IMG/VR virus record: IMGVR_UViG_3300037193_001025
Span: 1 to 49,441 of that record
Length of the DNA: 49,441 nt
Source: a virus
Direction: 5' to 3' (one strand)
Shown: positions 142-25,392 of the stretch, in pieces
Layout: each line of letters opens with the position of its first letter
How positions within the stretch are numbered: the first letter of the stretch is position 1
Notes under the pieces: model-generated
Database searches by the model: none
What the model was told of the DNA's origin: nothing
What the model saw: the letters and a program-made list of their open reading frames with translations, nothing else
Position numbers and translations under genes: made by a program

Positions 142-3100
142 CCCGACAAGACCTGGGGCGACTTCTGGGCCGAGCGCCCCGACGCCGCGTTCGACACCGC
201 CGTCGCCACCGCCGTCATGGCCGGTGGCATGGGCACGGTGCACGGGGTCCTGCGTTCGGTCGCCAAGCAGGACGCCAAGGCCGAAGCCGCACCGGATCAG
301 GTCGAGCGCTTCAACGAGGTGGTGAAGGCGACGGCGGCGCTGCCGCTGCGCGAGCGCGCGCCGGAAGCCTACGCCGGCTACATGCAGCAGATCGCCGAAG
401 GGGTCGACGTGCTGATCCCGAGCGAGGTGGTCAGCACGTATCTCCAGGGCCTGCCGCCGGAAGAGGCCCAGGGCTTCATCGCGGCGACCGGCATCGAGAG
501 CCAGCTCGCGGCGGCCACGACCGGCGCGGACATCGTGATCCCGGCGGCGACCTACCTGACGCACATCGGGCCGACCCCGGCGCACGCCACGTTCGAGCAG
601 GAGCTGAAGATCGGCCCAGGCGGCATGTCGCTGCGGGAGGCCGAAGAACACAAGGCCGACCGCGAGCGTCTGCTCAGCGAGGCGGCGGCCCGCGCCCTGG
701 GCAGCGGCGAGACCGAGGACCCGGTCGAGCGTGTACGCCAGCACTTCTACGAGAGCGCCGTCGCGGTGGGCGTGCCGGAAGAGCAGGCGCGTGCGAACGC
801 GGCGCTCCAGGCCAGCTATTACGCCCAGCGCGCCGCCCGCAACACGACGTTCAAGGACGCGTGGGAAGCCTACGCCGACGCGAACATCAGCATGAAGGGC
901 GCAGGCGTCACGACCGAAGGACCGGGTGGTCTGGCGGTCGGTGGTCCTGCGTTCGACTTGCAGCAGGAAGGCGACACGCTCTTCCACGGCACACGGCTCA
1001 AAGGGCTGAAGAAACTCAAGACCAGCTCGCGCGGCGCGCTTGGTCCCGGTGTGTATTTCACGCCGAACAAGAACGTGGCTGAACGCTACGGCGACGAAAT
1101 CTATGCTGCGCTCGAACCCGCCGGGGTCTTCAACGGCATGGGATCACGCGACAGCCGGATCAATCCCTACCAAGTGTGGCGAGACCAGACCGCTAAACTT
1201 GTCGCCGCAGCCGGCGAGCGCGGCGCGGAAGTGCAAGCTATCGCTGAACGGATGCAGCCGGCGGACGGCTATCCGTTCTTCAAGCGCCTCGCGCAGATGT
1301 ACGGATCGGAAACCGAAGCGCAGGACGTGTTCAAGCGCGCCGGGTTTGTGGGGGTGTCGGGCTTCGCTGACGGTCCCGAGATCGCGCTCTTCGACGACAC
1401 CGCAGTCGACGCGTACAGCGCAGCGGTGTTCGAGCAAGACCAGCCGAAAGCCAAAGGCCCCAGGGGTCAGGTCTCCTTCGCGCCACAAGGCGCGCTGATC
1501 GAGCTGTTCAAGAGCCGGAACGCCAGCACCCTCATCCACGAAGGCGCAGGGCACATCTGGCTGGAGAACCTTGCACGCGACGCCCAGGACCCGAACGCGA
1601 CGGATGAAGTGCGCGCCGACTTCCAGTTGATCAAGGACTGGTGGCTCGCGAACGTCGAGCAGGCGGCGAAGGAAAGCGGTCTGGGCGAGCGCAAGCTCAG
1701 GAACGCCGTCGAGGCGTTCGGCACTGGCAAAAAGGTCGACGTCGAAGCGATCCGGCCGTTCCATGAGATGTTCGCGCGGGCCGCCGAGCGCTACGTCATG
1801 GAGGGCAAGGCCCCGAACGACAGCCTGCGCGCGGCGTTCGCGAAGTTCCGGCAGTGGCTCGTCGCGATCTACAAGGATTTCACCGCGCTGCGCGTGCCCA
1901 TGACGGACGAGATCAGGGGCGTGTTCGACCGGCTCGCCGCCGGGCCGGTCGCCATCGATGACGCCATCGTCGAGCAGTCCCTCGAACCGCTGCCGCCCGA
2001 CACGCTCACCGAGCTGATGACGCCAGCCGAAATCGAGGCGTACCTGCGCGCCGTGCAGCTCGCCGACGCGGCGGCCGAGGACCGGCTGCTGGCGAAGCTG
2101 CTGGGCGACGTGCGGCGCAAGCACACCGAGGCGTGGAAGAGCGAGCGCGCGGCGCTGGTCGAGGACTTCCAGGCCCAGGTCGACGCGACGCCCGAGATGC
2201 AGGCGCTGACCTTGCTGGAGACCGGCGAAGTCCGCATCCAGCGCCAGTCGCTCACCGACGCCGGGGTCGACGAGGCGGCGCTCTACCGCCGGCGGCGGGC
2301 CTACGTGTTCGAGGAAGGTCTGCCCGTCGATGCTCTGGCCGAACAGGTCGGGCTCGACAACGGGCAGGAGCTGATCGCGTCCCTAGTGAAGATGAAGGAG
2401 GAACACGATGCACTTCGCGCTGATGGTGACAGCCGGACTGTGCGCGTCGCTCGCGCCGAGGCTCTGGCCGACCAGGAGATGCTGGCCCGGCACGGGGACA
2501 TCCTCAACGACGGGACCATCGGCGACGAGGCCATCGCAGCGCTGCAGGACGTCCGCCGCTCGGAAGTCCTCATGTCCGAGGTTCGAGCCCTGGTCCGTAA
2601 GGGCGGCGAGGCCACGACCCTCTGGACGCAAGAAGAGATGGCGGCGTGGGCCGCGCGACAACTGACGGGCCGTCCGCTCGCCCTCATCCGGCCGCACATC
2701 TACAAGGCGGCCGAGGCGAAGGCGGGCCGTGACGCCCTCAAGGCGCTGGTGAAGGACGACTTCGTCACAGCGCTCGACGCCAAGTTCAGGCAACTCCTGA
2801 ACATGCACCTGTACCGGGCGGCGCGCGATGCGCGCGAAACGATCACGAAGGGCAAGACGCTCTTCGACCGGATCGCCAAGGCTCGGAACGGCACGCTGGC
2901 CAAGACCCGCAACATGGACTTGGTCAGCGCTGCCCGCGCGATCATCGAGCCCTACGGCTACGGGGCCGCCGCGAACGACACCGACTACATGCGCAAGGTG
3001 CAGGCCTACGATCCCGAGCTGTGGGCCGACATCGCCCAGACGGTCGAGACCGCCATCGCCCAGGCCAAGCCGGTCGACGATCTGACGTTCGACGAGTTCA

Positions 3101-10065: not shown

Positions 10066-10074
10066 CGGCCCCGC
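10056..10074. terminator. Hairpin at the convergent operon ends
   Basis: GCGGGGC (10056-10062) pairs with GCCCCGC (10068-10074) around a 5-base loop that contains the rightward stop codon. The stops of both convergent genes lie within the stem-loop. It has no T-run on either side, so it may act as a bidirectional pause or mRNA 3'-end protector more than as a classical intrinsic terminator. Confidence 0.5.
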
Positions 10075-10268
10075 GCCCTGATCCGGCGCATCTCGCCTTC
10101 GTAGTCGTAGTCGAGCAGCCTGATCTCTTCCTTGATCGCCTGGATCAAGTCGTCGACATGGTCATAGGAACCGATGGCCTGGATGCGGTTAAGCATCCAG
10201 GTCCATTGGCCCTTGCGCCAGTTGTGCGCGCCGGCAGCGTGCGACGCGGCGGACTGCCGGCGCTTCAT
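10062..10268 (-). CDS. Hypothetical basic protein, last gene of the leftward operon
   Basis: This encodes 68 residues, basic at both ends (MKRRQSAASH; MRRIRARGR) with an acidic centre (DHVDDLIQAIKEEIRLLDYD). The ATG at 10268 is chosen because it overlaps the previous stop by ATGA; the longer frame reads through the upstream gene. No family recognised. Confidence 0.65.
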   Translation of the reverse strand: MKRRQSAASHAAGAHNWRKGQWTWMLNRIQAIGSYDHVDDLIQAIKEEIRLLDYDYEGEMRRIRARGR

Positions 10269-12620: not shown

Positions 12621-12940
12621 CGCCAGTCGTTCAGCCGGTTCGCTGCGTAGACGCGACCGATCTCGCGTTGCAGGTCGGCTTCCGCCTTCGCTCTTGCCGG
12701 TTCGCTGATCGTCGACTTGAACGCGCTGGGGTCCGCCCACTGCTCAGGCTTGCGCAGCAACCGATAGACCCGGCCGTCGCTGTCCATGATCGGCAGCACA
12801 AGGCGCACCTCGTAGCGCACGCATTGGCCGAAGCCGTCGAACGCGGCGGTCGCCCAATGCACGAACGCCCAGCGCTTCACGCGCTCGACGCAGTTCGGCC
12901 TGTACTGGTAGGCGTAACCTACCATCGGGTTATCAGGCAT
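12617..12940 (-). CDS. Hypothetical protein upstream of the helicase
   Basis: This encodes 107 residues. It is aromatic-rich at the N-terminus (GYAYQYRPNC, RWAFVHWATAAF), has a beta-like centre (VRYEVRLVLPIMDSDGRVYR) and a helical basic C-terminus. It overlaps its upstream gene by eight bases and the helicase by ATGA. Tight coupling suggests a role in DNA metabolism, but no family is recognised. Confidence 0.62.
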   Translation of the reverse strand: MPDNPMVGYAYQYRPNCVERVKRWAFVHWATAAFDGFGQCVRYEVRLVLPIMDSDGRVYRLLRKPEQWADPSAFKSTISEPARAKAEADLQREIGRVYAANRLNDWR

Positions 12941-14025: not shown

Positions 14026-14545
14026 GATGCTTCCAGAGGAACCGCGTGTGGATTTTGTGGATGAGCTGATGGCTGACGCCGTACTCGGCCGCAAGCTCGC
14101 GCTCTTTCTTGACGTAGCGTTGGGCGCGGATCGCGCGCACCTGATCGTCGGTGAGTTTCGCCGAGCCGTGGCTCGATCCTTGGCAGAGCGTACCGTGCTG
14201 CCGCGCGTCGTCGCTGTTCTGGAGCGACGTGCCGTATGCGATGTTGTCAACCGCGCAGTTCGCCTTCACGCCGTCTCGGTGGCGCACTACCTGCCCCGGC
14301 GGGCGCGGGCCGATGAAGGCTGCCGCAACGAGCCGATGGACGTGGAACGTCTTGCAGTGCCCGCCCCGGCTTAGTGTGACTTGGAGGTATCCTTGCGGCC
14401 CAGGGCACGGATTCAACAGCCGGCCGGGGCGCGTCCAAGTTGCGCCGTTAGGATGGCGCAGCGTCTTGTCGAGCGACCGCACCCGGCCCCGCGAGCTGAC
14501 CTCGTAGGCTCCCTCGTAGCCGACAACCGGCCGCCACTCTTCCAT
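14015..14545 (-). CDS. HNH homing endonuclease with NUMOD4 and HTH
   Basis: This encodes 176 residues from the ATG at 14545, which overlaps the polymerase stop (TGATG). Residues about 3-27 form a NUMOD4 DNA-binding motif (W-PV-GYEG-YEVSS-GRVRSL). The HNH nuclease core follows: HVHRLVAAAFIG with H70, RHRDG with H89 and D91, and N101 in VDNIAYGT. A C-terminal helix-turn-helix (LTDDQVRAIRAQ, ELAAEYGVSHQLIHKI) completes the usual free-standing homing endonuclease plan. It cuts a specific phage target to spread itself. Insertion after a polymerase gene is a common location. Confidence 0.9.
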   Translation of the reverse strand: MEEWRPVVGYEGAYEVSSRGRVRSLDKTLRHPNGATWTRPGRLLNPCPGPQGYLQVTLSRGGHCKTFHVHRLVAAAFIGPRPPGQVVRHRDGVKANCAVDNIAYGTSLQNSDDARQHGTLCQGSSHGSAKLTDDQVRAIRAQRYVKKERELAAEYGVSHQLIHKIHTRFLWKHLDR

Positions 14546-16641
14546 CAATCATCCTTGCGATAGCGTGCAGCTTCGAACCCGGCGGCCTTCAGCGGCATGC
14601 CTTGGTTCCACTGTTCACCAATACACATCAGGTGGGAGAGTTTGTCATGCGAAAATTCGGGGCTGTCGTCCGCTTCGCAGATCAGCTCGTCATGCGCACG
14701 TAGCAAAATATCAAAGCCTTCCGCTTCAATACGTGGGATAGAATAGAACAAGCAGTCACGCGCAAATGCTTGGCACGCGTTCTCGAATATCTTGCCGCCG
14801 TAAGTACCAATCCAACCCCAAGTGTGGGTGTATTGCGAAACTCCTTGATAATACACCTTCCCGTCGCGGACGTGGGCGCTGGGGTAGCAGACCGCCCGGC
14901 CCGAGGGCAGGATCATGCGCAGCCACACGCCGTCGCGACGGAAGGCCAGCTTGCGGCAGCGGAAGAGCTGCCCAGGGTTGGCGATGGCGCGCTTCGCGCA
15001 GTCCTCCAGGTCTTTCCAGTAGCTGGAGATCGCCGGGTGTGCCTCGCGCCAGAGGTGCTTCAGCGCCTCGCAGGCGATGAAGACGTCGTCGCTCAGGCCG
15101 TAGGTGCTCAGGCCCTTCTTACGACGCCATTCGAGCATGCCCAGGGCCTGCTTGTAGACGTCGGGAGCCAGGAGCGGAAGTACAGCAGCGGCCACGGCAG
15201 CCAAATCCATCCGGTAGGTGAGCACGAAGGTGACGAAAGCACCCACACCACCTTCATAGGCGAGCGCCAGTTCTTGAATTTTACCCAGTTGCCTCTGCGC
15301 TTTAGTGATGGACATGGGATCGACACCGAAGGATCGACCGTACGCCAATCGATACATGTCAGGTGCATCGGGATCGTCGAATTGGACACGGTAGGCCTCC
15401 AGCTTCCAATCCTCGCCCGCCAAGTAGGCGGCGCTCACGCCTTCGATGTTGCTCAGGTCCGAGACCACCAGCTTGCACCCAGGCGGGGCGATGATCGCGC
15501 CGCGCAGGGCGTTGCTCGCGGCCTTCGGCACGCTGCTGCACACCAGCGGGATCAGGTCATAATGCCGGTGCTTGAACAGCTCGATCCCGCTCATGATCTC
15601 CCACTCGCTCAGCGTCGGGCGGGGGAAGTTCTGCGGCTGGATGAGGCGACCGGCGTCGCGCCCGGTGCGCGAGGCCCCGTTGAACTGGATCAGGTTCCGC
15701 GCCCGGCCGTCGCGCGAGGCGACCTGCCGCATCTTCACGTACTTCGCATTGGACGGCGTCGCCGTCTCCATGCGCAGGGCCAGCAGGTCGCGCACGGCTT
15801 GCGGCAGGCTCTCATCCTTGGCCCGGCGCTCCAGCGTCGCGCCCTTCATGTCGGGCAGCTCGACACCGTACTCGGCCAGGATGTGGGCCAGCAGCGCGTC
15901 GCGCTGATTGGCGGACTGCACGTCGCCGCCGGTCTGCTCGTCGACCTGGGCATCCAGGTTGACCTTGTTCTGCGCCACGGCCTCGATGCAGGCGTCGGCC
16001 AGCTCCAGGTCGAGCAGCACGCCGCGCTGGTTCATCAGGTGCGTGCGCCGCCACAGGTCGCGCTCGACCGGGCCGAAGTTCCACACCGGCATCTTCTTGC
16101 GCAGGACCCGCATGGAGCGGATGTCCTTGACCGCGTAGTCGTTGAGGAATTCGGACCACTCTTCCGGGTGCGTGACCCGCGTGGCGCGGTAGTCTCTTTT
16201 CCTACCTTTCAAGGGGGCTTTGCAGAAAAGGGACATCAGCTCGCTGCCCCGCTTCGACTTGGCGTCGTCGTCGCTGAGCTTGAACACGACGCTGAGCTTG
16301 CCGAGCGCACCTTCCAGACCGTGGGCGAGGGCCTGGGCCATGGTGCACCAGACCTTCTCAAGCGGGATGGCGAGCCCCAGGCCGCGCGGATAGGGTAGCG
16401 CCATCATGGTCAGGTCGAACGGCGCATTGTGGAACACGATCTCGTCGGCGAACATCACGGCTTCTTCGAAGTCCGCCGGGGGTGTCGGATCGAGCGTGCG
16501 ATCCCAGGCCTTCACCTCGCCCTCGTCGATGGCGTAGGTGACGATCATCACCTCGGCGTCGTCGCTGTCCGCGTAGGCTCCGAGCCCGCATTTGAACAGG
16601 TCGACGGAACTGAACGTCTCGGTGTCGAGGTAGAGGATCAT
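14545..16641 (-). CDS. DNA polymerase I (family A) with 3'-5' exonuclease
   Basis: This encodes 698 residues from the ATG at 16641 (ATGA overlap with the methyltransferase). It is the replicative polymerase. The exonuclease residues are D6 and E8 (YLDTETF), FHNAPFD (70-76) and YAVKD (169-173), so proofreading looks intact. Polymerase motif A is VVSDLSNIEG (D395), motif B is R450-K454-Y462 (QRQLGKIQELALAYEGG), and motif C is HDEL (650-653). There is no 5'-3' exonuclease domain, as in T7 polymerase. Two patches, about 14620-14860 and 15200-15400, are visibly AT-richer than the rest, suggesting mosaic exchange. Confidence 0.95.
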   Translation of the reverse strand: MILYLDTETFSSVDLFKCGLGAYADSDDAEVMIVTYAIDEGEVKAWDRTLDPTPPADFEEAVMFADEIVFHNAPFDLTMMALPYPRGLGLAIPLEKVWCTMAQALAHGLEGALGKLSVVFKLSDDDAKSKRGSELMSLFCKAPLKGRKRDYRATRVTHPEEWSEFLNDYAVKDIRSMRVLRKKMPVWNFGPVERDLWRRTHLMNQRGVLLDLELADACIEAVAQNKVNLDAQVDEQTGGDVQSANQRDALLAHILAEYGVELPDMKGATLERRAKDESLPQAVRDLLALRMETATPSNAKYVKMRQVASRDGRARNLIQFNGASRTGRDAGRLIQPQNFPRPTLSEWEIMSGIELFKHRHYDLIPLVCSSVPKAASNALRGAIIAPPGCKLVVSDLSNIEGVSAAYLAGEDWKLEAYRVQFDDPDAPDMYRLAYGRSFGVDPMSITKAQRQLGKIQELALAYEGGVGAFVTFVLTYRMDLAAVAAAVLPLLAPDVYKQALGMLEWRRKKGLSTYGLSDDVFIACEALKHLWREAHPAISSYWKDLEDCAKRAIANPGQLFRCRKLAFRRDGVWLRMILPSGRAVCYPSAHVRDGKVYYQGVSQYTHTWGWIGTYGGKIFENACQAFARDCLFYSIPRIEAEGFDILLRAHDELICEADDSPEFSHDKLSHLMCIGEQWNQGMPLKAAGFEAARYRKDD

Positions 16642-17306
16642 GCGAGCGCCTGGATCGCGAGATGTTCCATAAGCTGGTCGCCGAGCCATTTAGTATAGGC
16701 TGGCGGGAGTGCTTCGACGAGATGTTCGTTATCCATCCAGTCGATCCCCATAGCTTTGCAACGTAGTTCGAATTCGCCGCTGTAATTTATATGGCCGTGA
16801 ACGCCGACGACGGTTGCCAGCTTCCCTGCGCGGTGCTTCGCGATGTTCAACGACCTAAAGCGTGGCGTTTGCCGATGATGCTGACATTTCGGCGGCGTAG
16901 GTGCGGACCAGCCACCAATTTCGAACAGCCGATGACGCTGTACATCGAGGTCGAAACTTGAGCCGCAAAGGCGAATGGGTTCATGCAGGGGCGCACCTTC
17001 TACATTTTCGATAATGTAAGGCAGACCAGTTGCGCGCAATAGTTCCCGTGTATGAGGAACCAAATCAACATGGTTCCCTCTGCTTTTGCCTGTTACAGAA
17101 CTGTGGACTTGGCACGGTGGCGACGCATGTACTGCATTAAAATTCAGACTAATCCAAAGAGGGTCCAATTCGAGAACGTCAGCCTGTTGAAATTCGAACG
17201 GATACTGCGATTGGGGTTCTTTATCTACCCCTATTACTTCAAAACCCGCGCGTGCGTAGCCCATCGCCGCACCCCCCGCGCAACAAAATAGATCGAGCAA
17301 ACGCAT
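16638..17306 (-). CDS. DNA (cytosine-5) methyltransferase
   Basis: This encodes 222 residues from the ATG at 17306, which follows TTTGGAGGAC. Motif I (LLDLFCCAGGAAMGYARAGF), motif IV with catalytic C65 (ASPPCQ), motif VI (IIENVEG, E100), motif VIII (QRHRLFEIGG) and a C-terminal ALPPAYTKWLGDQL are all present. It is shorter than restriction-type enzymes such as M.HhaI, with a small recognition domain, and matches the compact phage methylase type. It probably protects phage DNA from host restriction or marks phage DNA. Base composition is clearly AT-richer than its neighbours, pointing to recent acquisition. Confidence 0.9.
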   Translation of the reverse strand: MRLLDLFCCAGGAAMGYARAGFEVIGVDKEPQSQYPFEFQQADVLELDPLWISLNFNAVHASPPCQVHSSVTGKSRGNHVDLVPHTRELLRATGLPYIIENVEGAPLHEPIRLCGSSFDLDVQRHRLFEIGGWSAPTPPKCQHHRQTPRFRSLNIAKHRAGKLATVVGVHGHINYSGEFELRCKAMGIDWMDNEHLVEALPPAYTKWLGDQLMEHLAIQALA

Positions 17307-17394: not shown

Positions 17395-17988
17395 CTAGGC
17401 CAGACCCGCCAGCTCTTCGTCTTCCTCGCCCTGGTCGCCCAGGTTCTGGAAGGCCGAGCGGTCGGCCGGCTTGCCGCCGCCGAACGCGTCGCCGTCGCGG
17501 ACGAACTGGACGCCAAGCAGGGTGCAGTTCGAGCGCTTGTACTTCGCCCACTGGCCCCACAGCTCAACCTGGGCGTTGACGTAGCAGCCCGCGTAGGGTG
17601 CGCCGTCCTCGCCCTCGCCGACTTCCTTCGCCTGCCGGTTCAGGATCAACGGCGCGGCGTTCTTGCCTTCCGTCGCCCGACTGTTCAGGACCCAGCAGCC
17701 TTCGGCCGCGCCGGTCTCGTCGCCGTCCAGCATCCGGCGGTCGCGATCCGCGAGCTTGTCGAACAGCTTGCGCGCGTTCGGCTTCTCCTTCTCGGACATC
17801 TTCTGCTGGACTTCGTCGAATTCCGCCGCGAGCAGCGCCTCGATCTCCTTGGCGTGCTTCACCTTGTCCAGGTGGAACGCGGCGCTCCAGGCCCGCGAGC
17901 TGTTGACGTCGTCTTCGTCGAACCGCTTCGGGGTCCAGAGGACCGGATAGCTGAGCCGCACACCCGGCAGCATCATACGCGTAGCCAT
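17395..17988 (-). CDS. DUF2815 single-stranded DNA-binding protein
   Basis: This encodes 197 residues from the ATG at 17988, with GGAGAAG upstream. The N-terminal GVRLSYPVLWTPKRF, the WSAAFHLDK strand and later YAGCYVNAQVELWGQW match the DUF2815 family, an OB-fold type similar to T7 gp2.5. The C-terminal tail is acidic (GDQGEEDEELAGLA), the usual partner-binding feature of ssDNA-binding proteins. It likely coats single strands for the polymerase and nuclease encoded next to it. Confidence 0.85.
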   Translation of the reverse strand: MATRMMLPGVRLSYPVLWTPKRFDEDDVNSSRAWSAAFHLDKVKHAKEIEALLAAEFDEVQQKMSEKEKPNARKLFDKLADRDRRMLDGDETGAAEGCWVLNSRATEGKNAAPLILNRQAKEVGEGEDGAPYAGCYVNAQVELWGQWAKYKRSNCTLLGVQFVRDGDAFGGGKPADRSAFQNLGDQGEEDEELAGLA

Positions 17989-18029
17989 CTTCACTTCTCC
18001 GTCTTCACTTCTAGTGCGGCCTTGGTGAA

Positions 18030-18058
18030 CCCAGGCGACCGGCCGCGCGCCGCCTGGG
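18030..18058. other. Intergenic hairpin before the ssDNA-binding protein gene
   Basis: CCCAGGCG (18030-18037) and CGCCTGGG (18051-18058) form an 8-bp perfect stem with a 13-base GC-rich loop. It sits between the stop of the 18063 gene and the start at 17988. Without a T-run it is more likely an mRNA stabiliser, pause or processing site than a strong terminator. Confidence 0.4.
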
Positions 18059-18062
18059 AATT

Positions 18063-18284
18063 CTAGGCATCGAGCGCCCTACGCCCGGTGTCGGTAATTT
18101 CTACCGCTTTTCGGTCTCCGTAAGCGCCGCGTGCGACGACCACCCAGCCGTTCCGCTCGCAGATGTTGTGCGTCGACATCGTAATGCCGGGAGGGGCATT
18201 GTTCACATACCCCCAACTCGTCGTAATCTCGCCCTTGTTCACGGCATGCAGATACCGGCGTTGCGCATCTGTCGCGCGCTTCAT
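18063..18284 (-). CDS. Small winged-helix-like hypothetical protein
   Basis: This encodes 73 residues. A helical N-terminus (ATDAQRRYLHAVNKGEI) is followed by NICERNGWVVVARG and a closing VEITDTGRRAL, the pattern of a small winged helix where the wing is a beta hairpin. The product of 28588 ends the same way (TEITEAGRRAL). It overlaps the nuclease gene by ATGA. AT-richer than its neighbours. DNA binding is likely but unproven. Confidence 0.6.
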   Translation of the reverse strand: MKRATDAQRRYLHAVNKGEITTSWGYVNNAPPGITMSTHNICERNGWVVVARGAYGDRKAVEITDTGRRALDA

Positions 18285-19627
18285 GCCAGATGCGACAGGT
18301 CGTCGCCCTCCACGGCAGCGAACGCCGAGCGGTCAGGCCCGCAGGAGATCGCGGGACGCGGGTCGTCCTCGCGGGCGACGTGCCGGCCGCCTTCCTTCTG
18401 CGTGATCAGGTCTTCCAGGGCCGACCATTGACGCGCCGACAGCTTGCCCGCCTTGACGAACTTCTCGGCGGCGGTCGGGCTGATCGGCTTGGGCTCGGTC
18501 ATGGCGTCTTTCGTGCCGAGCACGCGCTTCAACGTCTTGGCCGCCTTCTCTTCGTCCGCCCAGGCGCGGCTGCCCTTCTTGCCCTGCACGATCTTGAAGC
18601 CGGGGACCGGCTGGCCGGCGAGCAGGCGCACCTCGACGGCCGAGCGCAGCTTGGTGAGGTAGTCCTCTAGGAAGTTCGCCATCTTCATGCGCTCGCCGAG
18701 CGCTTGGCCGTCAAGGTCGGCGAGGATCGGCACGCGGGCCGTGATCGCCTTCATGACTGTGCCCTCTTCCGGCGCGTCCAGGTCGACGAACCCGCCGGCC
18801 AGACTGTTCACCACCTCCTGGAAGCGGCCCTTGCACAGCGGGTTGCACCACTCGCACTGTTTCTCGCCCGGCGCGTACTCGCCGACCGGGATCGCATCGA
18901 GGCCCTGGGCGACCGCCACCTCGTAGTTGCGGACGCCGTGCTGCGCCGCCATCGCGGCTTCGGTGCGCGCCCACATGCGCAGATCGGCGACGCTCATCTC
19001 CTCGGACGTGATGCCGCTGTCGCCGTGCGGCGGCTGCACGATCATCATCTCGACCGTGTCGATCTCCCAGGCCATCTCGACTTCAGCGAGGCTGCCCAGG
19101 CCGTACAGACGGAGCTGCCCGTTGCCCATCGCCACGACCCGGCGGTAGCCGGTCTTCAGGTCGATCACGATGATCTTCTTGAGCGACGGGATCACGATGA
19201 TCGCGTCGGACGTGCCCCAGGCCAGCTTCTGTTCGACGCCGAGGTACTGCGCGTAGTTGACCTGCACCTCGACCATCAGCACCGCGTCGGGATGCTCCTT
19301 GTAGAGCCGCCAGACGAGGTCGACGTAGGACTGAAGCTCTTCGGCGAAGTCCTCCTTGATCTCGATCTCGTCGCCGTCGACGGCGACGCAGTCGCCGATG
19401 TAGTCCAGGCAGGAGAGCCGATTTGTTCCCAGATCGTCGGTGCTCGCTTCACGCCGCAGCAGGGCGTCCAGCACCTGGGCGACGACGTCGTGCCCGGCCG
19501 TGCCCTTCCGCGACGCCGGGTTCGAGCTGTTCGGCATGACCGCGCGCTGGGCGAGGTAACCGTAGCAGGCCAGCCAGCCGGGCGAGCCGCTGGCGCTGAG
19601 CAGTGAGTGTTCGGCTTGGTCGCCCAT
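18281..19627 (-). CDS. DUF2800 RecB/Cas4-like PD-(D/E)XK nuclease
   Basis: This encodes 448 residues. The nuclease core is recognisable: H46 in GTAGHDVVAQVLD, E120 in VEVQVNY, D141 in GTSDAIIV, D156-K158 in VIDLKTG and Q171 in NGQLRLYGLG. A Cys group (CEWCNPLC) resembles the metal or Fe-S binding part of Cas4/AddB-type nucleases. Phage DUF2800 proteins sit with DUF2815 proteins, as here, and are thought to act as recombination exonucleases. The ATG at 19627 has GGAGGAC upstream. Confidence 0.87.
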   Translation of the reverse strand: MGDQAEHSLLSASGSPGWLACYGYLAQRAVMPNSSNPASRKGTAGHDVVAQVLDALLRREASTDDLGTNRLSCLDYIGDCVAVDGDEIEIKEDFAEELQSYVDLVWRLYKEHPDAVLMVEVQVNYAQYLGVEQKLAWGTSDAIIVIPSLKKIIVIDLKTGYRRVVAMGNGQLRLYGLGSLAEVEMAWEIDTVEMMIVQPPHGDSGITSEEMSVADLRMWARTEAAMAAQHGVRNYEVAVAQGLDAIPVGEYAPGEKQCEWCNPLCKGRFQEVVNSLAGGFVDLDAPEEGTVMKAITARVPILADLDGQALGERMKMANFLEDYLTKLRSAVEVRLLAGQPVPGFKIVQGKKGSRAWADEEKAAKTLKRVLGTKDAMTEPKPISPTAAEKFVKAGKLSARQWSALEDLITQKEGGRHVAREDDPRPAISCGPDRSAFAAVEGDDLSHLA

Positions 19628-19630
19628 AGA

Positions 19631-19822
19631 TCAGTCCTCCAGATACGTCATGCTGCGGTGCCAGTCGTCGGCGCGGCGCGCCCACACCCGGCCGTTGCCG
19701 CCGATATACACGACGGTCTTGGGGTAACGCTCTTCGTCGAGCAAGTTCGCGACCAGCAACACCGTGTAGGTGTTGCCGTTGCGGTGCCGCCAGCGCTGTC
19801 CTGGTGAAGGCGCAGCTTCCAT
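19631..19822 (-). CDS. DUF1653-like small protein
   Basis: This encodes 63 residues: RWRHRNGNTYTVLLVANL, then TVVYIGGNGRVWARRADDW. The alternation of a G-N-x-Y strand, a VVY strand and a WxR(x)n-W end resembles the DUF1653 small beta fold common in phages. Role unknown. The start codon has GGAGGACGAC directly upstream. Confidence 0.62.
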   Translation of the reverse strand: MEAAPSPGQRWRHRNGNTYTVLLVANLLDEERYPKTVVYIGGNGRVWARRADDWHRSMTYLED

Positions 19823-19843
19823 GTCGTCCTCCTAGCTTTGGAT

Positions 19844-19867
19844 GAGGGCGTGGCGAACCGCGCCCTC
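19844..19867. other. Intergenic hairpin
   Basis: GAGGGCG (19844-19850) and CGCCCTC (19861-19867) form a 7-bp stem around a 10-base loop, in the 53-base gap between the genes at 19876 and 19822. No T-run is present. Function is unclear. Confidence 0.35.
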
Positions 19868-19875
19868 TGCCGAAA

Positions 19876-20265
19876 CTAGGCCAGCTTGGCTTCCTCGATC
19901 TTCTCCAGGAAGGCGTCGTAGTCGCTTTCCTGCACCTCGCCCAGCCGGGTGATCGGGCCACCGTCCTTGTTCTTGAAGTCGGCCCAGATTTCCTTCAGCT
20001 TCGCGCCCTGGTCGCCGCGCTCCTTGGCGAACGCCATGCCGATCTTGGCGAAGGCGGCGGCGTCGAGACCCTGGCTGTTGCCGTCAGCCTTTTGAGGCTC
20101 GGGTGTCGTAGCGGCGGGCGCGCTCGGCTCTTCGGGCGGCGACACGTTGCCAGAAGTCGTCTTCGTGGGCTTTGGGGCGGTCGTCTTCGGAGCCTCCCCG
20201 CCGAGCTGCGCGATCAGCGCCTGCAACTCGGTCAGCGACGCGCACTGGATGGTCACGGTGTACAT
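19876..20265 (-). CDS. Hypothetical protein with disordered linker
   Basis: This encodes 129 residues. A short N-terminal beta-alpha unit (MYTVTIQCASLTELQALIAQ) is followed by a Pro/Thr/Ala-rich disordered linker (about 27-60) and a helical C-terminal domain (KIGMAFAKERGDQGAKLKEI, DYDAFLEKIEEAKLA). The build suggests an adaptor or single-strand-binding accessory factor, but no family is recognised. It follows the structured leader at 20266-20436, which may control it. Confidence 0.65.
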   Translation of the reverse strand: MYTVTIQCASLTELQALIAQLGGEAPKTTAPKPTKTTSGNVSPPEEPSAPAATTPEPQKADGNSQGLDAAAFAKIGMAFAKERGDQGAKLKEIWADFKNKDGGPITRLGEVQESDYDAFLEKIEEAKLA

Positions 20266-20436
20266 GGTCAGTCGTCCTCTCTGGGGTTGTGGTCAAGAGC
20301 GTCGGGGCTCTTGGGTGAGATCGCGAGCTGCTGGTGCGCTCCGGCATACACCGGCCCAGCGGCCTAGGGGCCACGCCCCGTACCTGCTCGCGATCTCCCG
20401 AAGAGCCCTGGACACTAGCAGGCCCAGGGCGCTCGA
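20266..20436 (-). ncRNA. Structured non-coding leader with alternative hairpins
   Basis: This 171-base gap has no gene. A long imperfect inverted repeat pairs 20305-20328 with 20386-20408: GGGCTCTT and GAGATCGCGAGC against their complements, with only a short mismatch between the two blocks. Inside the 57-base loop are two further hairpins (GGGGC/GCCCC and CCGG/CCGG). On the minus strand the last part of the long stem (AAGAGC) can instead pair with GCTCTT six bases downstream, giving mutually exclusive folds before the ribosome binding site AGAGAGGA. This resembles an attenuator or riboswitch-type leader. No known class is recognised. Confidence 0.5.
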
Positions 20437-20664
20437 TCACTCGTCGATGTGGTCCGCCTCCCGCCGGACGAAGCGGCCGGTCTTCGGGTCGCGGTTGTCG
20501 TTCTTCCGGGCGAGCGCCAACTCGTCGCGTAGGTTGCGGTTCACGTCGACCAACAGGTTGCGGTCCGCGCGCACGTTCTGGAGCTGCTGCCGCACACGTT
20601 CGTTCTCGGCCTTCATCGCCTCGACGCGGTCGCGCAGTTGCCGGATCGTCGACCAGGGCCACAT
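20437..20664 (-). CDS. Small coiled-coil protein
   Basis: This encodes 75 residues from the ATG at 20664 (TGATG junction with the KGG gene). The N-terminus is MWPWSTIRQLRDRVEAMKAE, continuing as an uninterrupted coiled coil to about residue 55, then a KNDNRDPKTGRFVRR tail, a motif common in phage proteins. The Trp-rich start may touch the membrane. Function unknown. Confidence 0.62.
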   Translation of the reverse strand: MWPWSTIRQLRDRVEAMKAENERVRQQLQNVRADRNLLVDVNRNLRDELALARKNDNRDPKTGRFVRREADHIDE

Positions 20665-20867
20665 CACGCGGGGTCCTTCTTATAGTCCGCGTCCAGGCCC
20701 CGCGCGAGGCCGTTGGCCGAGCCGCCGAGGCGGCCGGCGCTGGCTGCCAGCTCGCGGTCGCGAGCGAAGCTGCGCTTCTCGCTCGGCACGCTGGCCCCGC
20801 CCTTGCGGGCGATCTCCCTGCGTCGCTCGGGGCTCATCGCGGCGAAGCCCTTGGGTTTCTTGGTCAC
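20664..20867 (-). CDS. KGG-motif protein
   Basis: This encodes 67 residues, starting with GTG at 20867 after AGGAGGAC. The sequence GFAAMSPERRREIARKGG, then SFARDRELAASAGRLGG is the repeated KGG motif of YciG/stress-induced small proteins, where each unit reads (R/K)-x-x-A-x-x-G-(G/R)-x-G-G. It is highly basic and probably disordered until bound. The role in phages is unknown; nucleic-acid binding is plausible. Confidence 0.72.
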   Translation of the reverse strand: MTKKPKGFAAMSPERRREIARKGGASVPSEKRSFARDRELAASAGRLGGSANGLARGLDADYKKDPA

Positions 20868-20871
20868 GGTT

Positions 20872-21066
20872 TCAGTCCTCCTTGGTGAAGTTGTAATAGG
20901 CCCACGCCGTCAGCAGACTGAGAGGGCCGAGCAGAAGCGCGCCCCAAAGAATGTTGTGGGCCGCGCCTTTGGTGTCGCCGAACCGGCTACGCCAGTGGCG
21001 CATGCACATGCCGTGGCCGAGCGCCCCGAAGCCGATCCAAAGCGCGACGCAGAATAACGGGGTCAT
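20872..21066 (-). CDS. Small membrane protein
   Basis: This encodes 64 residues with two likely membrane segments (LFCVALWIGFGALGHGM; NILWGALLLGPLSLLTAWAY) joined by a polar loop with HWRSRFGD. It is an inner-membrane early protein, which could serve in superinfection exclusion or host takeover; this is only a guess from timing and topology. It overlaps the first gene of the arm by ATGA. Confidence 0.62.
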   Translation of the reverse strand: MTPLFCVALWIGFGALGHGMCMRHWRSRFGDTKGAAHNILWGALLLGPLSLLTAWAYYNFTKED

Positions 21067-21269
21067 CGGTAGCCCGCTTCCATGAGGAAGTTGGACACGA
21101 CGCCCTCCACCTCGGCGAGGCGGTCGTCAGCCGGCAACGTGAAGCCCATCTTGTAGAGCTTGTCGGTCAGCGCCTTGACCGCTTCATCGACCGCGTACTT
21201 GTGCGCGTCGCTCGCGTCTTCGCGGGCGTCGAGCATGGCGCGGATGTTGGCGCTGCGTGCGATGGTCAT
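21063..21269 (-). CDS. First leftward early gene, hypothetical protein
   Basis: This encodes 68 residues, helical and charged (ASDAHKYAVDEAVKALTDKL, then DDRLAEVEGVVSNFLMEAGY). It is preceded by the strongest promoter in the window and a GTCAAGTTTGGAGGAC leader, so it should be made early and abundantly. No family recognised. Confidence 0.68.
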   Translation of the reverse strand: MTIARSANIRAMLDAREDASDAHKYAVDEAVKALTDKLYKMGFTLPADDRLAEVEGVVSNFLMEAGYR

Positions 21270-21274
21270 GTCTC

Positions 21275-21327
21275 GTCCTCCAAACTTGACAGCGCCGACC
21301 CTACGCTCGCCGCGTCGGGCCTGTCAA
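21275..21327 (-). promoter_or_regulatory. Leftward early promoter and leader
   Basis: On the minus strand TTGACA (21322-21327), an 18-base spacer and TAGGGT (21298-21303) are followed seven bases later by GTCAAGTTTGGAGGAC (to 21275), five bases ahead of the ATG. A consensus -35 and this strong ribosome binding site mark the main promoter of the replication arm. Confidence 0.75.
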
Positions 21328-21353
21328 CTGTGCAGTATGCATTTTTTGTTATG

Positions 21354-21402
21354 TTGACGGCGGGCCGATTTCGGGCGTAGGCCTGTGCGGTCATTGGAGG
21401 AC
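21354..21402 (+). promoter_or_regulatory. Rightward early promoter and leader
   Basis: TTGACG (21354-21359), an 18-base spacer and TAGGCC (21378-21383) precede ATTGGAGGAC (21393-21402) and the ATG at 21410. Its -35 box is back to back with that of the leftward promoter, 26 bases apart across an AT-rich core with ACTGTGCAGT and a T-tract. A regulator bound in the core would affect both. Confidence 0.68.
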
Positions 21403-21409
21403 AGGACAC

Positions 21410-21586
21410 ATGGCTCAGCTTACCGTAGGCGATCTGATCGCGAAGCTTCGAACGCTCGACCCGGCGCTGCCGGTGTTCGTGTTCAACGGTGTCGAAGAGC
21501 TGGATCGAGCGCAGGACATTGAGCTTGGGGAGTGGCAAACCGACCTTTCCCCGCCGGTCTTTGGCGTGCGCGTGGTGCCCTGGTGA
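21410..21586 (+). CDS. First rightward early gene, 58-residue protein
   Basis: The frame reads MAQLTVGDLIAKLRTLDPAL and continues through PVFVFNGVEE to GVRVVPW. The pattern TVGDLIxxLxxLDPxxPVFV resembles small phage proteins with a short beta-alpha-beta fold. The start follows ATTGGAGGAC. Its end overlaps the next start (GTGA). Function unknown. Confidence 0.7.
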   Translation: MAQLTVGDLIAKLRTLDPALPVFVFNGVEELDRAQDIELGEWQTDLSPPVFGVRVVPW

Positions 21587-21657
21587 TCCTCCCGATCCTG
21601 CTGGCCCTGGTCGGGCTGTTCGTCGTGGTGGATGTCCTGCGGAGGTGGAAGCGATGA
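21583..21657 (+). CDS. 24-residue single-span membrane microprotein
   Basis: The frame is GTG-ILPILLALVGLFVVVDV followed by LRRWKR, one transmembrane helix with a basic cytoplasmic end. Its GTG overlaps the previous stop (GTGA) and its stop overlaps the next ATG (ATGA). Coupling at both ends and the clean membrane-anchor pattern support it despite its size. Confidence 0.5.
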   Translation: MILPILLALVGLFVVVDVLRRWKR

Positions 21658-21944
21658 GCGTGTACGAGTGGCATGACCCCTGGGCGTGGGTCGCGAGGAA
21701 GCAGCGGGTCGAACCGCAGCCGCCAAGCGCGCCTGTGAGCCTGAAAAGCATCAACGACCCGGCTGCGGTCGCCGAGCTGATCGCGCTGGCGAAGCGCTAC
21801 GACGTCAACACCGCACGTGCTGCGATGATGCAGGTCGCGGGCGTGACGAAGCTGGTGCAAATCCCGCGCGCCGAGCAAGTGGTGTTCGTGCGTCAGGTCC
21901 GCGAGCGGATCGAGCGCGACCACCAGTACGACGATCAAGCATGA
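21654..21944 (+). CDS. Hypothetical early protein
   Basis: This encodes 96 residues from the ATG at 21654. The N-terminus is aromatic (VYEWHDPWAWVARK), then a helical domain (INDPAAVAELIALAKRYDVN, then RAEQVVFVRQVRERIE). Phage early genes with this layout are common but unnamed. It overlaps the HTH gene by ATGA, after GGAGGTGG upstream of its own start. Confidence 0.65.
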   Translation: MSVYEWHDPWAWVARKQRVEPQPPSAPVSLKSINDPAAVAELIALAKRYDVNTARAAMMQVAGVTKLVQIPRAEQVVFVRQVRERIERDHQYDDQA

Positions 21945-22138
21945 CCGGCATCGAGCGCGCGATCCAGGCCCTGGGCGGGCAGGCGGCGCTGGCGGCGGCG
22001 TGCGGCGTGACGCAGCCGGCGGTCAGCCGCTGGGTGCGACAGGGCTACGTGCCGCGCCGGCGCTGGACGCTGGTCGCCTACGCGACGGGCGTCGGAGTCG
22101 AGGACTTGGCTTTAGACATGGCTCGGGGAGGGAAGTGA
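21941..22138 (+). CDS. Cro/YdaS-like helix-turn-helix protein
   Basis: This encodes 65 residues. The HTH is clear: IERAIQALGGQAALAAACGV, then TQPAVSRWVRQGYVPRRR, the pattern of YdaS/Cro-type proteins. Phage YdaS/Cro proteins repress or switch early promoters. The divergent early promoter core at 21328-21353 is the obvious target. No partner CI-like repressor or integrase is present, so a lytic timing role is more likely than lysogeny control. Confidence 0.8.
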   Translation: MTGIERAIQALGGQAALAAACGVTQPAVSRWVRQGYVPRRRWTLVAYATGVGVEDLALDMARGGK

Positions 22139-22968: not shown

Positions 22969-25241
22969 GCACGAACGTCGTCCCGCTGCGCCCGGTGTAT
23001 GGCGCGAGCCCCGAGGACTGGAGCCACCTGGAGATGGTGGTGGGCCACGCCGACTTGCTGCCGGTGGTGTCGAACCCGAACGCGGTGATCAGCGAGGACA
23101 GTACGCTGAAGGCCCTGGGCAAGACGCCCAGCGTCTACAACCGCAACCGGCGGGTGGTGGGCCTGCCGAAATGGACAGCCAAGCAAAGCACGGCGGCCGA
23201 GGTCGCCGCCTGGAGCCGGGAGCCCGACTATGGAATTTGCATTCAGACCCGACGCGTGCGCGGGCTTGACATTGATATCGCCGATCCCGGATTGGCACAG
23301 GAGCTTGAAGACGCTTGGACTAGAGCGTTGGCGGTTCAATGCCCTGCCCGAGTACGCCCAGCCACTGGCAAGCGGCTGCTGGCCTTCGAACTGGTCGGCG
23401 AATTCACCAAGCGGAGCTTCAAGGTCGAAGGCGGCCTCGTCGAATTCTTGGCTGGCGGTCAACAGTTCGTCGCGCTTGGAGCCCACACCAGCGGTCAGCG
23501 CTACGAGTGGCCCGGAGGTCTCCCTGATGCGTTCCCGGCAGTCAGCCAGCGAGATTTCGAGGCGGCGTGGGCTGTTCTGGTCGACCAGTTCGCGCTAGCG
23601 CCCGCCACGGAAGGCGCGGAGGGTGCGGACCGCAGCCGGGCCGATCTGGACGGTGTGCAGGACGAAGTTGCCGCCTACCTGGAGGAGCACGGGTTGGCCC
23701 TGGGCCATCAGGGCGAGAAGCTGTTCGTGGCCTGCCCATGGAAGGACGGGCACACCTCCGACAGCGGCATCTCCGAGAGCGCTTGGCTTGTCGCCGGGAC
23801 CAGGGGTTTCGAGCGTGGACATTACCAGTGCATGCACGCTTCCTGCCAGGGGCGCACCGATGAGCAGTTCCTCGATGCGGTCGGCTACCGGGTGTCGGCG
23901 TTCAGGAACCTGGATGAAGCCGGCGACGCGCAGACTGGAGGGAATGACGTCGCCGGCCCCGCGCAAACCACTCAGGAAACGCCCTCACGGGACCTGTTCA
24001 ACGTAACAGACCCGTGGCCGCGCCTCAAGCGCGACGGAACCGGGCGGATCGAGGCGGTGATCGAGAACGTCGAGGCGGCCTTGGCCCGGCCCGACATGTG
24101 CAAGGCGATCCTGCGGTTCGACACCTTCCGCGACGAGCTGATGATCCAGTGGGAGGGCGACGCAGCGCCGCGCCCGATCACGGATGCGGACGGTGTCGCG
24201 CTGCGCGTGGAACTGGCCGGGCGCGGCTTCAAGCCGGTGGGGCGCGAGCTGATCCGCGACGCCCTGCTGCTCCAGGCGCGCGACAACCAGTTCGACAGTG
24301 CCCAGGAGTGGCTGGCGTCGCTGCCGGCGTGGGATGGGGTCGAGCGGGTCGAGACGTCGTGCTCGACGTTCTTCGCGGTCGAGGACACGCCCTATAGCCG
24401 GGCGGTGGGGCGCTACCTCTGGACGGCGCTCGCCGGCCGGGTGATGGACCCCGGCTGCAAGGCCGACATGGCGCTGGTGCTCCAGGGCGCGCAAGGGATC
24501 AGGAAGTCGACCGCCGTCGCGGCGCTGGCCCCGATGCGCGAGATGTTCCGCGAGGTGTCGCTGCATGCCCTCGACGCGGACCTGTCGCGGAAGCTCAGGG
24601 GCTGTGTGGTCGCCGAGATGGCCGAGCTGCGCGGACTCAGGGGCCGGGAGAGCGAGGCGATCAAGGCCTGGATCGCGCAGCGCGAAGAGCGCTGGGTTCC
24701 GAAGTGGCAGGAGCGCGAGACGGCGTTCCAGCGCCGGTGCGTCCTCATCGGCACGTCGAACCCGCAAGGCATCCTCGACGACGAGACCGGCGAGCGCCGG
24801 TGGCTGCCGGTGGCCTGCCTGGGCCGGCTGGACGTCGAGGGGCTGGAGGCCGTCCGCGAGCAGCTCTGGGCCGAAGGGCTCTGGCGGTGGCGACTGATGG
24901 GCGTGGAGTGGCAGGACGCCGAGCGTCTGGCCGGCGGCGAGCACGTCAAATTCAAGGTCCGCGACGAGCGCTGCGCGGTGGTCGAGCGGTGGCTTCAGAT
25001 GCCCGCTGACGTGTCGGGTATTACGTGGGAAGAGCGTGGCTGGGTGCTGCTGGCGGACGTCGCGGACGGCGCTCTGGGGGTGCGCGGGCAAGGCCTTACC
25101 ATCCCTTACCAGCGGGACTTGGGAAAAGTGCTACGGACGCTCGGGTGGGAGCCCGGCACGAAAAAGGACGACGGACGTGTGTTCCATGCCTGGATCAAGC
25201 GAAAGGTAAGGGATGGTAAGGCCTCGGTAATGGATGGGTAA
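22965..25241 (+). CDS. Primase-helicase: prim-pol domain plus VapE-type helicase
   Basis: This encodes 758 residues from the ATG at 22965 (ATGA overlap). The N-terminal ~250 residues look like a bifunctional primase-polymerase fold (YGICIQTRRVRGLDIDIADP with the acidic pair, then VEFLAGGQQFVALGAHTSG). A middle Cys/His part (CPWKDGHTSD, HYQCMHASCQG) may bind zinc. The C-terminal half is a virulence-associated E (VapE) helicase: Walker A GAQGIRKST (508-516), then LSRKLRGCVVAEMAELRG, RRCVLIGTSNPQGILDDETG and RRWLPV. It should prime and unwind DNA for the family A polymerase. The 3' end carries the first iterons of the candidate origin. Confidence 0.9.
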   Translation: MSTNVVPLRPVYGASPEDWSHLEMVVGHADLLPVVSNPNAVISEDSTLKALGKTPSVYNRNRRVVGLPKWTAKQSTAAEVAAWSREPDYGICIQTRRVRGLDIDIADPGLAQELEDAWTRALAVQCPARVRPATGKRLLAFELVGEFTKRSFKVEGGLVEFLAGGQQFVALGAHTSGQRYEWPGGLPDAFPAVSQRDFEAAWAVLVDQFALAPATEGAEGADRSRADLDGVQDEVAAYLEEHGLALGHQGEKLFVACPWKDGHTSDSGISESAWLVAGTRGFERGHYQCMHASCQGRTDEQFLDAVGYRVSAFRNLDEAGDAQTGGNDVAGPAQTTQETPSRDLFNVTDPWPRLKRDGTGRIEAVIENVEAALARPDMCKAILRFDTFRDELMIQWEGDAAPRPITDADGVALRVELAGRGFKPVGRELIRDALLLQARDNQFDSAQEWLASLPAWDGVERVETSCSTFFAVEDTPYSRAVGRYLWTALAGRVMDPGCKADMALVLQGAQGIRKSTAVAALAPMREMFREVSLHALDADLSRKLRGCVVAEMAELRGLRGRESEAIKAWIAQREERWVPKWQERETAFQRRCVLIGTSNPQGILDDETGERRWLPVACLGRLDVEGLEAVREQLWAEGLWRWRLMGVEWQDAERLAGGEHVKFKVRDERCAVVERWLQMPADVSGITWEERGWVLLADVADGALGVRGQGLTIPYQRDLGKVLRTLGWEPGTKKDDGRVFHAWIKRKVRDGKASVMDG

Positions 25242-25368
25242 GGCCTAATTTTCTCAATAAAATCAGAATGGTAAGGTGAGTAAGGTCTATTTTCCTATTG
25301 TGGGTTGAAAATAAAAAGAAAAAACACTCAGGGGAAACAATAGGGATTTTTAGGCCTTACCCCTTACC
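25094..25368. repeat. GGTAAGG iteron cluster, candidate replication origin
   Basis: Eight exact copies of GGTAAGG occur in 275 bases. Plus-strand copies start at 25205, 25215, 25237 and 25270; inverted copies start at 25094, 25104, 25355 and 25362. Near-copies are at 25226 and 25279. Neighbouring copies are mostly 10-11 bases apart, one helical turn. They surround the most AT-rich stretch of the genome (about 25247-25350), next to the primase-helicase gene. Iterons on the same helix face plus an AT-rich unwinding element form a typical origin. The gap 25242-25449 holds no gene. Confidence 0.7.
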
Positions 25369-25392
25369 TCGAAATTGTAATACGGCTGGCGC

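Follow-up and report, generated by a model that had tools for sequence, protein, structure and literature searches.

A GC hairpin and a long sequence-variable stem before the early replication genes of a virus: a candidate operon-punctuation element

What role could a strongly folded, gene-free segment play between two small genes in the replication region of a virus? The question is raised by IMG/VR record IMGVR_UViG_3300037193_001025, a virus whose 49,441 bases, analyzed at full length, are here called the window. The segment had originally been predicted to be a leader with two mutually exclusive folds, resembling attenuation or a riboswitch. Our study leads to a different and tentative answer, to which we grant somewhat less than an even chance: the segment would be a sequence-agnostic hairpin that punctuates the operon by acting on RNA, whether through termination, processing (RNase III-type cleavage), or mRNA stability.

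The long stem and the two small hairpins enclosed by it were recovered in the minimum-energy fold at exactly the predicted coordinates, and the stem consists of 22 Watson-Crick pairs, one C.C mismatch, and one bulged A (Table 1). Against 200 dinucleotide shuffles, the fold z-scores of the stem region are -3.7 on the plus strand and -3.35 on the minus strand, and a ranking of 4934 GC-corrected 120-nt windows across the record puts it first on each strand and third overall. A coding reading of 20266-20436 was ruled out by the codon score, which lies between -0.48 and -0.59 in the three minus frames as against +0.35 for true genes. The segment is therefore structured and non-coding, as proposed; it is not the largest gene-free one, since gaps of 192 nt (12741-12932, one frame of which scores well for coding) and 199 nt (10066-10264) are longer. 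It belongs to a leftward operon, whose genes run from 21269 down to 10265, and stands upstream of a BPP-1-like DUF2800/ssDNA-binding/PolA replication module, with the stop codon of the 76-aa gene just before the upstream GC hairpin. A boxA role for CGCTCTTGA, contained in the downstream hairpin, was considered and rejected, as the motif is no commoner than expected. Two further features of the record were observed: a small protein with a KGG motif (Pfam PF10685) at 20664-20867 in the early operon, and, at 25091-25362, inverted and repeated AGGCCTTACC and GGTAAGG motifs at the end of a VapE-like primase/helicase gene, which adjoin an AT-rich stretch (36% GC, 25261-25380) and mark a candidate replication origin.

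Table 1. Features of the segment, its genomic surroundings, and the elements of two compared phages.
Feature	Coordinates	Strand	Basis or remarks
Non-coding intergenic segment (171 nt)	20266..20436	-	Between the 76-aa and 129-aa genes of the leftward operon; codon score and ORF layout
Long stem, 5' arm GGGCTCTTCGGGAGATCGCGAGC	20386..20408 (20408-20386)	-	Fold
Long stem, 3' arm GCTCGCGATCTCACCCAAGAGCCC, with bulged A and C.C mismatch	20305..20328 (20328-20305)	-	Fold
Apical hairpin A, around GGGGC-GTG-GCCCC	20361..20384	-	Minimum-energy fold
Apical hairpin B, GCTGG to CCAGC, inner CCGG-TGTATG-CCGG	20330..20360	-	Minimum-energy fold
Upstream GC hairpin AGCGCCCTGG ... CCAGGGCTCT	20402..20433	-	Adjoins and partly overlaps the long stem; counterpart of the relatives' terminator-like hairpin
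Downstream hairpin CAAGAGC-CCCGAC-GCTCTTG	20294..20313	-	Cannot form together with the long-stem base; holds boxA-like CGCTCTTGA
Ribosome-binding site AGAGAGGA of the 129-aa gene	20275..20282	-	Sequence
129-aa protein	19876..20265	-	By position and C-terminal motif, the protein usually preceding the DUF2800 exonuclease; weak similarity
76-aa small protein, upstream of the element	20437..20667	-	ORF layout
DUF2800/exonuclease-type protein	18281-19627	leftward	
Enc34-like ssDNA-binding protein	17395-17994	leftward	
Family A DNA polymerase	14545-16689	leftward	About 49% identical to the BPP-1 polymerase
BPP-1 (NC_005357) element	L010:5728-5799		Between the ssDNA-binding gene bbp40 and bbp41; unannotated, not in Rfam
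Caulobacter phage BL94 elements (two)	L011:1551-1638, 2220-2306		Upstream of the exonuclease, before two different genes

Direct searches for relatives of the element were negative. Its nucleotide similarity to phages and plasmids did not exceed chance, a two-arm pattern search of IMG/VR returned seven matches that were all judged to be chance, and a limited literature search found no description of such an element. In agreement with the prediction that it matches no known class, none of 4227 Rfam families reached its gathering threshold (best chance match, E 0.33), and the same search on eight related loci likewise gave nothing apart from a tRNA elsewhere. In collections that may omit records very near the window, close relatives of the module were not found through the exonuclease, the 129-aa protein, the polymerase, the terminase, or the capsid: the replication kin do not exceed about 50% identity (DNA polymerase), and the terminase and capsid kin, which reach 65% identity, do not have the replication module. 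The genome is thus a mosaic whose structural and replication kin differ. Directly upstream of the counterparts of the 129-aa gene, inverted repeats were not found in general, so that positional conservation at this site is not a rule. We therefore turned to a covariance model built from the sequence of this one element. When about 1.7 Mb of loci were searched, the four best non-self loci (L321, L090, L340, and L289, at 29.4 to 21.1 bits) all matched at one place in the same kind of module, namely between its ssDNA-binding gene and its polymerase gene. It is important to note that a single-sequence model gives rough E-values and rewards any long stem, and for this reason it is the location, not the score, that carries the argument.

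The loci that carry such an element share a common design, in which a GC hairpin (e.g., CCCGGCCTTCGGGCCGGG) is followed directly by a stem that opens with a short T-tract (starts CGCTTTG, CTATTCGG, or CTCTTCGG), a variable apical part, and the complementary arm. Outside the window the stems have 14-21 bp and lie mostly between the ssDNA-binding and polymerase genes, BPP-1 included. In a survey of 139 dereplicated loci, 13.7% had a stem of at least 12 scored pairs after the ssDNA-binding gene, compared with 3.1%, 1.7%, and 0.8% at three control positions and 0.3% in shuffles. Relative to the direction of transcription, the hairpin of the tabulated members stands 5' of the stem, and the start codon of the next gene follows 9-22 nt past the stem in 14 of 23. 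The apical part is 7 to 130 nt long and lacks a conserved loop, unlike what would be expected of an aptamer. Many other loci have an ordinary terminator-like hairpin with a T-run at the same place and no long stem; the long stem therefore appears to be an optional addition. The pattern of constant feet was also run against 399 genomes from the order to which Achromobacter pestifer belongs; it gave no match and added no members. Taken as a whole, this looks like an uncatalogued family of elements whose stem pairing is kept while its sequence is swapped between close phage relatives.

Several loci show additional features around the element. In L289, L312, L340, L032, L318, L146, L035, and L037, an extra untranslated stretch that starts with GGGAGC or GGGGGC, often GGGGGCTTCC, continues past the stem, in several cases for up to about 170-195 nt before the next gene; it is possibly a second structured RNA. 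Xenorhabdus-type loci (L054, L102, L117, L119, L144, and L150) have a GC hairpin and then TATCAAAAAGCACA ... TGTGCTTTTTGATA, with conserved arms, just before a small gene upstream of the exonuclease. Reading frames resembling HNH/NUMOD proteins lie directly past the element in L082, L092, and L325, where the gap may serve as a landing site for homing endonucleases.

Special attention was given to compensatory changes, the absence of which in homologues had been named as grounds for abandoning the original prediction. We built an alignment from the arms of 22 distinct members, using the T-tract to position them manually and an artificial GAAA to connect the two arms; the bulged A of the window copy was removed. 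In this alignment of the wider family, whose members had been selected partly for pairing, 97.1% of the pairs are standard, 12 of 14 have changed on both sides, and the covariation score is 0.813 as against 0.175 in shuffles, an outcome that favors a real stem. Because of that selection, a separate test disregarded the stem interior and chose places only by the feet GCTTTG...CAAAGC. Ten places directly preceded by a GC hairpin have five or six of the six interior pairs, two more hairpin-preceded places (L021 and L029) have four, and the other places have zero to three. Comparison of close relatives is also informative: between L332 and L090, identity is 98.6% in the flank toward the ssDNA-binding gene and 96.9% in the flank toward the polymerase gene, but the interiors of the two stems, each perfectly paired, cannot be aligned. 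The same situation, at 92-98% flank identity, was observed for L332/L321, L332/L101, and L289/L312; L090 and L321 have their interior in common, and the feet are constant beside the unrelated interiors of L332, L090, L101, L289, and L312. Judged from these alignments, the interior looks as if it changes by replacement and not by drift.

Does the window copy belong to this family? Its GC hairpin lies on the 5' side and borders, at its 3' end, on a stem of 12 or more pairs, and the copy is intergenic within a DUF2800/ssDNA-binding/PolA module. Its location is not the usual, though not universal, one between the ssDNA-binding and polymerase genes: it lies in front of the gene upstream of the exonuclease, an exception that the BL94 copies share. 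It does not have the CGCTTTG foot; a GCTCTTCGG foot is common to it and L146, and CTTCGG/CACCCAAG to it and BL94. Only one hairpin-plus-stem place occurs on the minus strand of the window, where shuffles give 0.25 per strand, and the plus strand can also be read in the family orientation, as a second hairpin flanks the other side of the stem. From this architecture and these short motifs, we regard the window copy as a probable member by design, whose homology to the others would be a further step.

On the reading that we prefer, operon punctuation, a GC-rich terminator-like hairpin and then a long sequence-agnostic stem stand shortly before the next gene of an early replication operon, and action on nascent or mature mRNA would be most likely. 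The first hairpin may weaken read-through or mark a 3' end, the long stem could offer a duplex for cleavage by an enzyme of the RNase III type or a block that stabilizes the 5' or 3' side, and the genes on the two sides would consequently be expressed at different levels. The retention of the duplex while sequence, loop, and length vary suggests that the duplex itself is recognized, the lack of a conserved loop and the freely varying stem sequence suit a sequence-agnostic duplex, and a length of about 22 bp is compatible with an RNase III site. Several observations count against operon punctuation: the tract after the first hairpin is CTCTTC, a weak U-tract, and this hairpin does not appear in the terminator consensus scan; the pairing is almost purely Watson-Crick; the window copy is positioned before the exonuclease gene, not in the usual gap; and the search for close kin of its module gave nothing above about 50% identity in the DNA polymerase.

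The second of these observations leads to the alternative that survives best, possible in our view though distinctly doubtful, namely that the inverted repeat works at the DNA level, where it would form a cruciform or a single-stranded hairpin and take part in replication or recombination (as an origin, a single-strand initiation site, or a swapped hairpin cassette). Across the family, 403 of 417 stem positions are Watson-Crick, and the remainder are 4 G.T, 7 C.A, and 3 others; as G.U pairs are not in excess on the transcribed strand, nothing here points to RNA in particular, and the strand data would fit either a need for a perfect duplex in RNA or a DNA-level role. The wholesale replacement of interiors between constant feet in phages with 97-99% identical flanks is what a swapped DNA cassette would produce, and the element is part of a replication module, with the GC-skew minimum of the record forming a plateau at about 19.4-21.2 kb. 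However, transcription changes direction at this same minimum, the AT-rich repeat stretch at 25.1-25.4 kb is a more usual candidate for an origin, two copies before two different genes in BL94 would be odd for an origin, and the small hairpin has a constant orientation with respect to transcription. A related proposal, which we consider unlikely, is that diversifying exchange acts on a hypervariable hairpin cassette in the replication operon of BPP-1-like phages, which might, for instance, be an origin or an exclusion determinant in competition between phages or between phages and satellites, and that the window carries one such cassette.

Next comes the regulatory leader switch (an attenuator, a riboswitch, or a protein-responsive element) that would operate through two exclusive folds. 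The folds themselves were confirmed. On the minus strand the closed fold has -85.6 kcal/mol and the open fold -83.7 kcal/mol, and a gap as small as these 1.9 kcal/mol occurred in only 0.6% (mononucleotide) and 1.1% (dinucleotide) of 1000 flank shuffles. The alternative AAGAGC/GCTCTT pairing is present at 20312-20295, and we identified a second competitor that had not been listed originally, the upstream hairpin; together, the upstream and downstream hairpins disrupt the 8-bp base of the long stem. When native flanks are added, the preferred fold shifts with the length folded, which means that the two folds are about equally stable. It is also conceivable that a ribosome terminating at the upstream stop codon, just before the upstream hairpin, could bias the choice of fold. 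The bistability is thus present, but gating of the ribosome-binding site is unsupported: its accessibility is about one half in either fold, and the small difference changes sign with the flank folded. The consensus scan gave no intrinsic terminator after the long stem, and neither a conserved loop nor an Rfam match above the gathering score accompanies it. What decides against a switch is that the hairpin and the stem coexist in 19 of 23 family members, with the stem base favored by 5-18 kcal/mol, so that switching is not a conserved property of the family; near-equal folds were found only in L037, one BL94 copy, and the window, while L146 loses the hairpin. The near-equal stability is real in the window copy and is probably a by-product of the overlap between hairpin and stem, and the attenuation or riboswitch interpretation now seems improbable.

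The remaining explanations are weaker. The presence of two neighboring stem-loops within an early operon of a phage recalls the processive antitermination RNA put of HK022, which acts on RNA polymerase; put RNAs share their sequence (PMC9378689), while the stems described here are hypervariable, and the element lies mid-operon, at roughly 860 nt from what is likely the leftward promoter region, which makes this explanation quite improbable. Slightly less credible still are paired repressor operators around an internal promoter. L024 (at about 6587) and L037 (at about 5329) do carry inverted copies of AAGGNAATGCCTT, likely operators, around a sigma-70-like promoter with TTGACA-like and TAGAAT-like boxes before the same exonuclease-preceding gene, and each window arm contains the short palindromic core TCGCGA. 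On the other hand, positions 17500-22100 have no sigma-70-like promoter, no further copies of the arm motif occur near the divergent promoter region, and the pairing of the arms extends beyond the core, with a mismatch and a bulge. A chance or non-functional hairpin, for which one could cite the high GC content that makes stems common and the failure to find a homologue of the exact copy, is very improbable, given a segment that is best among 4934 windows and a design that is overrepresented in particular gaps of related modules.

Should the family prove real, BPP-1, a well-studied phage, carries between its ssDNA-binding and polymerase genes a structured element that is unannotated and widely shared, and the stem is conserved as a duplex and not as a sequence. 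Drift is a poor explanation for unrelated, perfectly paired interiors between flanks that are 97-99% identical, and hairpin exchange could be examined in laboratory phages that already exist.

Among known systems, the put RNAs of HK022 measure about 70 nt, form two stem-loops, and follow early promoters, with putR about 270 nt past its promoter (PMC9378689). Their likeness to the window element is one of layout only, since put is conserved in sequence and promoter-near (PMC9378689). In short motifs, the closest elements are those of BL94 (CTTCGGCGAG/CTCACCCAAG) and L146 (GCTCTTCGG/CCGAAGAGC), although the rest of their stems is unrelated to that of the window. The BL94 pair, like the window copy, is upstream of the exonuclease; one of its copies also has near-equal folds, and the stem base of one reaches into the ribosome-binding site. 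The bbp40/bbp41 element of BPP-1 and its relatives present, as the window does, a GC hairpin followed directly by a long stem, a variable apical part, and a nearby next gene of the module. They differ in their feet (CGCTTTG/CAAAGCG in BPP-1, CTCTTCGG/CC-CAAGAG in the window), in their position after the ssDNA-binding gene instead of before the exonuclease, and in the coexistence of hairpin and stem. Integron attC sites are also hairpins with constant feet and a hypervariable interior; the feet of our element are unlike the attC core motifs, and as far as seen no integron integrase is involved. Finally, the early mRNA of phage T7 contains RNase III processing stems between its genes, at sites with common sequence features, and these stems and the window element are both duplexes placed between the genes of an early operon, with cleavage in the window put forward as a proposal only.
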